Assembly: GCA_023333565.1 (NCBI GenBank)
Contig: JAJKFH010002370.1
Span: 522,162-586,161 of the forward strand
DNA length: 64,000 nt
Direction: 5' to 3'
DNA from: Puffinus mauretanicus
Taxonomy: Eukaryota; Chordata; Aves; Procellariiformes; Procellariidae
The translations under genes were made by a program, and so were the position numbers. Position 1 is the first letter of the stretch, and the number at the start of each line of letters is the position of its first letter. Below the pieces are notes generated by a model that saw only the letters and a list, made by a program, of their open reading frames with translations, did not search any database and was not told the DNA's origin. This document shows, one piece after another, positions 61,306 to 61,404 of the stretch.

Positions 61306-61404
<99 letters not shown>

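Follow-up and report, generated by a model that had tools for sequence, protein, structure and literature searches.

Long GGC tracts in the upstream member of a tandem CpG-island promoter pair within a dispersed, probably subtelomeric unit in Puffinus mauretanicus

Results

The window (the whole 64-kb stretch of DNA that was analysed, contig C770:522162-586161, whose end is also the contig end) carries a pure tract of 33 GGC units in the upstream one of two duplicated promoters, and this pair is a member of a large family dispersed over the assembly (1.21 Gb, 2370 contigs). We regard it as likely that the upstream promoter (copy 1) is an alternative promoter and first exon in which the tract, initially of three units, has expanded and turned into a hot spot of slippage and deletion, copy 2 being the better preserved promoter. 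The series of tract lengths, the short tract of copy 2, the different sequences that follow the tract on its 3' side, the outward orientation on 16 of 17 large contigs and one telomere-like array are direct observations.

The tract and the promoter pair

The (GGC)33 tract occupies positions 61306-61404 on the + strand, is 100% pure and is the sole trinucleotide run of at least eight units within the 64 kb; GGC runs did not exceed five units in 2000 first-order simulations of positions 61001-62500. At the corresponding place, copy 2 displays three units, GGCGGCGGC (62271-62279, + strand). The NF-Y-type boxes, which precede the tract, are 965 bases apart (61255 and 62220), while the GCAG motifs behind it are separated by 869 bases (61411 and 62280), and this change of 96 bases is made up of 30 GGC units and the six bases ATGGGA. 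The initial annotation had given the same unit counts and offsets and had explained the difference by 30 units plus six bases, all of which was exact. It had also called the copies allele-like, which is wrong: the promoters are paralogues, identical at 178 of 214 bases (83%).

Both promoters (61130-61305 for copy 1 and 62095-62270 for copy 2, + strand) present their elements in the order NRF1-like site, ZNF143-type site, NF-Y-type box and TATTTCA. In copy 1, an NRF1-like site with one mismatch (61178-61189) is followed by the ZNF143-type sequence ACTACAACTCCCGGCGTGC (61204-61222) and by GATTGG as NF-Y-type box (61255-61260); in copy 2, the NRF1-like site is perfect (62143-62154) and is followed by the ZNF143-type site (62169-62187) and the NF-Y-type box (62220-62225). 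Binding sites of ZNF143 are described in PMC11687419. CpG observed/expected ratios reached 0.97 and 1.15 in the two promoters and 1.03 at 58900-59500, versus 0.32-0.68 in other neighbouring stretches, and the G skew was high behind each promoter (0.33-0.52 for copy 1 and 0.35 for copy 2). Five bases past its three GGC units, copy 2 displays GTGAGT (62285-62290, + strand), a candidate splice donor of a first exon. Its altered counterpart in copy 1, if the donor reading holds, would be GTCAGT (61416-61421, + strand).

The pair lies within a dispersed unit (58906-64000, + strand) that runs off the contig end. Its left edge is defined by a single locus, L048, which aligns to 58906-61155 at 92.5%, and 16 other loci align up to position 64000 at 85.6-98.8%. 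The unit opens with one degenerate copy of a 79-bp minisatellite (58906-58984, + strand, an extent taken from the repeat period) that contains a perfect NRF1-like site (58951-58962). This minisatellite was also found in L048 (2188-2462) and in L050 (1248-2888), where about 21 copies contain 15 perfect NRF1-like sites, and contigs C2310 and C2137 terminate within it. The window contains three NRF1-like sites with at most one mismatch, all of them inside the unit, with 0.06 expected. A 42-bp G-rich minisatellite with a 125-bp higher-order period separates the two promoters (61520-61815, + strand); their spacing is 965 bases in the window versus 840 at C2310, C2137 and C300, a difference of 125 bases that fits one 125-bp minisatellite unit. 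Elsewhere in the window, a reverse-transcriptase fragment was recorded at 55679-56299 (RVT_1, E 3.7e-20), which we take to belong to a CR1-type LINE.

A dispersed promoter family

Genome searches returned at least 41 matches for copy 2 and at least 40 for copy 1 (the best 40 of 140 and of 138 candidates scored), and the family may be larger than the matches listed. Among the promoters classified from fetched loci, 30 were of the copy-1 type and 41 of the copy-2 type; two of the latter (C2291 and C1181) have no NF-Y anchor and were excluded, so that all copy-2 counts below use 39.

Twenty of the 30 copy-1-type promoters contain 19-34 pure units (34, 33 six times, 31 twice, 30, 29 twice, 27, 26, 25 twice, 24, 23, 21 and 19), 34 being the longest pure run of the whole set. 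The ten shorter ones display ten units (interrupted), seven units in two cases and at most four in the remaining seven. Copy-2-type tracts never exceed three units (three in 35 promoters, two in two, and none at that place in two). An expansion restricted to one copy, as claimed for the window, is therefore encountered family-wide, in 20 of 30 copy-1-type and 0 of 39 copy-2-type promoters. Moreover, a copy-2 partner stands 272-1174 bases downstream of 19 of the 20 expanded copies, the twentieth being located at a contig end. The suggestion that the duplicated promoter offers a natural control was a good one and is stronger than originally put, since the same pair and the same contrast occur at many other loci. 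An assembly error at a single locus, which had been named as a possible refutation, was rejected as unlikely because many loci share the long tract.

At the level of the whole genome, (GGC)19 produced 233 overlapping hits on both strands. The promoter family explains 212 of them, and 17 belong to tracts outside the family on C132 (26 units), C414 (20), C476 (22) and C2287 (21), while four hits were left without placement. About 20 of the 25-28 GGC tracts of at least 19 units in this genome hence belong to the family, or slightly more if the unplaced hits do so too.

The units lie partly in tandem: copies are 15.5 and 16.5 kb apart on C38, and 9.1-9.4 kb apart on C2032, C2033 and C2163-C2165, the latter being of the short-tract type wherever they were fetched. 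Loci L035-L047 (contigs C2032, C2033, C2163-C2166 and C1668) likewise display the short promoter type, several of them in tandem, and no second promoter was found within about 1.2 kb upstream of such copies at the seven places inspected (L062-L068). At locus L073 (C783:374800-376200), a promoter of the copy-1 type displays an interrupted tract of GGC and AGC, akin to the pure ones, and is followed by another NF-Y-like region. At the end of C2297, the unit is adjoined by gag and pol frames resembling those of an endogenous retrovirus, as recognised by eye (L051, 2634-7133).

Orientation and chromosome-end position

On 16 of the 17 listed contigs longer than 200 kb, the promoters face a contig end situated within about 104 kb; the exception is C103, where the copy is internal and far from the ends. 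The chance of 16 out of 16 outward orientations is about 1.5e-5 if orientation is random and contigs are independent, some of which may however be haplotypes of one locus. A degenerate TTAGGG array of at least 5.6 kb occupies the end of C1688 (L082, 1-5670; C1688:62500-68169), wholly in the orientation that a telomere at the right end should have, and this array is a chromosome end in the assembly. Its onset falls between 62000 and 62500, because 20 stretches sampled from 12000 to 61999 contained no such array, and it is dense from 62500 onwards, about 59 kb from the promoter pair at about 2.6-3.05 kb. With this one contig as direct telomere evidence, we infer that the family as a whole is subtelomeric and telomere-directed, the place of the units other than that of C1688 following from orientation. 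Units follow one behind another on C38, C2297 and further contigs.

History and instability of the tract

The promoter of contig C331 is copy-1-like by score (267 versus 198 bits), yet it displays ACCCA, three GGC units and GCAGCGTGAGT, a state that looks ancestral. In the expanded copies, the 5' edge is nearly invariant: the tract starts directly after ACCCA in 18 of the 20 and after ATCCA in one, the last copy being an interrupted tract on C786. The 3' edge shows ten different continuations, namely ATGGGAGC... in 11 copies and nine others that each differ. Homology to the unexpanded promoter of C626 returns at +1 to +148 counted from the donor, apart from C1688, where it does not return within the compared part and where the continuation is a sequence found shortly before copy 2. 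GCAGCG is kept in 34 of 39 copy-2 promoters, and the GTGAGT donor occurs in 33 of them versus one of 20 expanded and three of ten short copy-1 promoters (the pattern requires a following CTGA or GTGA, and donors with other neighbours were scored as none); several 3' continuations of expanded copies contain no splice donor. A fixed 5' edge combined with a varied 3' edge suggests deletions starting at the 3' edge of the tract. Such breakpoints at the tract are encountered here between paralogues, not individuals; deletion breakpoints are reported to cluster around the CGG tract of FMR1 (PMC8623550).

All tract lengths come from one assembly. Copies whose upstream flanks diverge by less than 1% (13 pairs) differ by 4.5 units on average, and length difference was hardly related to flank divergence (rho 0.08 over 190 non-independent pairs). 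Within a tight group on C1708, C1999, C38 (twice) and C786 (twice), flanks diverge by 0.4-1.3% and the tracts measure between 21 and 34 units, whereas the near-identical copies of C770, C2137 and C2310 all have 33 units at less than 1%. The interrupted tract of C786 has a total of about 42 units, composed of about eight units, one GAC and 33 more. Exactly 33 units were recorded in six of the 20 expanded tracts, rather diverged copies included. An upper limit on length, gene conversion or an artefact of the consensus could account for this pile-up, and some of the near-identical contigs may represent both haplotypes of a single locus. Concerning the instability announced by the initial annotation, the tract does look unstable between paralogues of this assembly, but the parallel with human disease loci fails on length, 33 units being normal in FMR1.

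A tree of 156 alignment columns (42 of the 69 promoters, i.e. all 30 of the copy-1 type and 12 of the 39 of the copy-2 type) implied five or more changes between expanded and unexpanded labels, with a bootstrap that had not settled. Seven expanded copies formed a group with supports of 100/99 and five another with 91/92, and the tree is compatible with a single origin of the expansion as well as with many.

Coding content, polyglycine and CpG decay

The initial annotation had pointed out the ATG that directly follows the tract (61405-61425, + strand). This ATG opens six codons only (MGAVSV, then a stop) and was rejected as a start codon. It adjoins the tract in 11 of the 20 expanded copies, and the short copies of C331, C626 and C38:96654, which look ancestral, do not have it at the corresponding position. 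Nor did a polyglycine product find support, as no AUG in the glycine frame was found between the presumed start site and the tract. An in-frame CTG is present at 61297, nine bases before the tract, and the RNA of the tract is predicted to form a long hairpin (-87.1 kcal/mol, z -2.2 versus shuffled sequences).

Counted against a common consensus, TG or CA replaced CpG at 71 of 520 sites in expanded copies, 21 of 257 in short copy-1 and 33 of 1010 in copy-2 promoters, a difference taken to be mostly a fixed one between the two copies. When each group was compared with its own consensus, CpG loss was alike (23/440, 7/229 and 46/1049, respectively), as against 21/1380, 7/671 and 50/2494 for non-CpG transitions, and CpG density remains high in expanded copies. 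Taken together, these counts do not show an erosion of CpG sites by germline methylation.

Pfam scans of ten open reading frames of L010 and ten of L048 gave two weak matches below cut-off (PH_31, E 0.12; Vps36-NZF-N, E 0.033), and no recognised domain was found in these 20 frames. The codon-position test on 12 aligned units revealed no clear exon, and a 202-aa frame had no match at E 0.001 among 8000 candidates scored and no solved relative. These results led us to reject a protein-coding unit. Rfam returned no match at gathering score in the window. We think that the unit would yield from copy 2 no more than a telomere-directed RNA, either noncoding or of unrecognised nature, and that copy 1 may be a damaged alternative start.

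Discussion

In the history that we propose, the tract would belong to the upstream promoter of a tandem CpG-island pair within a duplicated, dispersed and telomere-directed subtelomeric unit. Copy 1 would have started as an ordinary promoter with three GGC units before GCAGC/GTGAGT, as kept in copy 2 and C331; ACCGA would have changed to ACCCA, after which the GGC run grew to tens of units, either once in a forerunner of most copies or on a few occasions, and the expanded tract would have spread through subtelomeric duplication. Being long, pure, GC-rich, G-skewed and placed just behind a promoter, such a tract might change length rapidly by slippage and provoke deletions from its 3' edge by which the donor of the first exon is lost or changed. 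Copy 2, with its short tract and its donor kept, would be the likelier working promoter of a transcript without recognisable protein. Transcription, start site, splicing, direction of change, the subtelomeric place of units other than that of C1688 and the instability mechanism are the inferred parts of this history.

Part of the same pattern would be expected if one expansion in an ancestral copy 1 had been carried along by segmental duplication and gene conversion and were now roughly stable, without special mutability; a single expansion with rearrangement of flanks within the family would then mimic recurrent instability. The two well-supported groups of seven and five expanded copies, the common 33 units of C770, C2137 and C2310 at less than 1% flank divergence, and the compatibility of the tree with a single origin all agree with this. 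Yet the span of 21-34 units within the group of C1708, C1999, C38 and C786 and the ten 3' continuations in 20 copies argue against it, and we consider such passive spread unlikely. Quite unlikely is an assembly or sequencing effect, with real tracts but with consensus errors or duplicated haplotypes behind their exact lengths, the excess of 33-unit tracts and the contrasts among near-identical copies. Six of 20 tracts have exactly 33 units, several copies lie on small contigs, and C2137 and C2310 are 99.07% alike across 10 kb; however, long tracts are common to loci with distinct flanks on large contigs, and neither the interrupted tract of about 42 units on C786 nor lengths from 19 to 34 indicate a fixed cut.

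The outward orientation, the CpG islands and the NRF1-like sites, which occur in each promoter as well as in a large part of the 79-bp minisatellite (L050) and which in the window all lie inside the unit, recall the human 61-29-37 repeats, for which PMC6600276 gives two putative NRF1 sites per 29-bp repeat. That the promoters are avian counterparts of TERRA promoters, which face the telomere, combine a CpG island with tandemly repeated NRF1 sites and send their transcripts into the telomere, is nevertheless very unlikely. The sole contig reaching a telomere-like array places it about 59 kb from the promoters, against a length of 100 bases to 10 kb indicated for human TERRA (PMC6600276), and units standing behind one another on C38, C2297 and others mean that not every promoter is telomere-adjacent. 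Highly improbable, finally, is a disease-like dynamic mutation at this locus, in which the expansion would silence or methylate copy 1 and yield polyglycine, as at FMR1 or NOTCH2NLC. A pure GGC tract a short way downstream of a CpG-island promoter, the strong predicted hairpin, the in-frame CTG and the CpG counts against the common consensus would suit it, but 33 units lie inside the normal FMR1 range (5-44 CGG units according to PMC8623550), no glycine-frame AUG follows the expected start, and CpG loss against each own consensus does not single out the expanded copies. The disease analogy drawn by the initial annotation holds in part.

Knowledge of unstable CGG repeats derives in large part from comparisons among people at a small number of human disease loci. 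The present assembly alone offers 20 paralogous tracts with 19-34 units as well as shorter and interrupted relatives, and 19 of the 20 stand beside an unexpanded promoter. The family would permit comparisons of repeat length, purity, deletion and promoter state at near-constant sequence and chromosome environment, and its sister sequences form a ready-made set for how such repeats grow and break. More tentatively, and with considerable doubt on our part, the GGC tract may have become the most frequent long GGC repeat of this genome via subtelomeric exchange and may be a site of recurrent breaks and deletions by which telomere-directed promoters on many chromosome ends are remodelled at the same time. 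Were this true, the paralogues would provide a dose series of 3, 7, 10 and 19-34 units in which promoter activity, R-loops and methylation could be related to tract length, and almost all long tracts come with an unexpanded partner no more than about 1.2 kb away. Judged by titles and abstract openings, no literature describing such a promoter/GGC family was found, nor any on subtelomeric CGG repeats in bird genomes.

Comparison with known systems

D4Z4-type subtelomeric macrosatellites likewise have GC-rich stretches in units that are partly arranged in tandem near chromosome ends (about 9.1-9.4, or 15.5 and 16.5 kb apart in the present family). The present unit differs in that none of the 20 open reading frames scanned displayed a recognised domain.

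Human TERRA promoters, with their 61-29-37 repeats, are described in PMC6600276 as telomere-directed and CpG-rich with NRF1-like sites in tandem repeats. A subtelomeric, telomere-directed position is indicated here by 16 of 17 contigs and by the C1688 array, and CpG islands with NRF1 sites in tandem repeats were found as sequence matches. The repeats themselves are different, and a transcript of up to about 10 kb would not reach the telomere-like array, located about 59 kb away on the only contig where this distance was measured.

The FMR1 5' UTR CGG repeat, beside which the GGC repeat of NOTCH2NLC may be placed, resembles the present tract by its location at a CpG-island promoter and by deletion breakpoints situated at the tract (PMC8623550). 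Length does not exceed the normal range of FMR1 (up to 44 units there, versus 33 here and 34 in the longest pure run among the 30 copy-1-type promoters). Contrary to both human loci, the tracts described here form a multi-locus family of paralogues of 19-34 units, with no protein recognised and with an unexpanded duplicate as partner.
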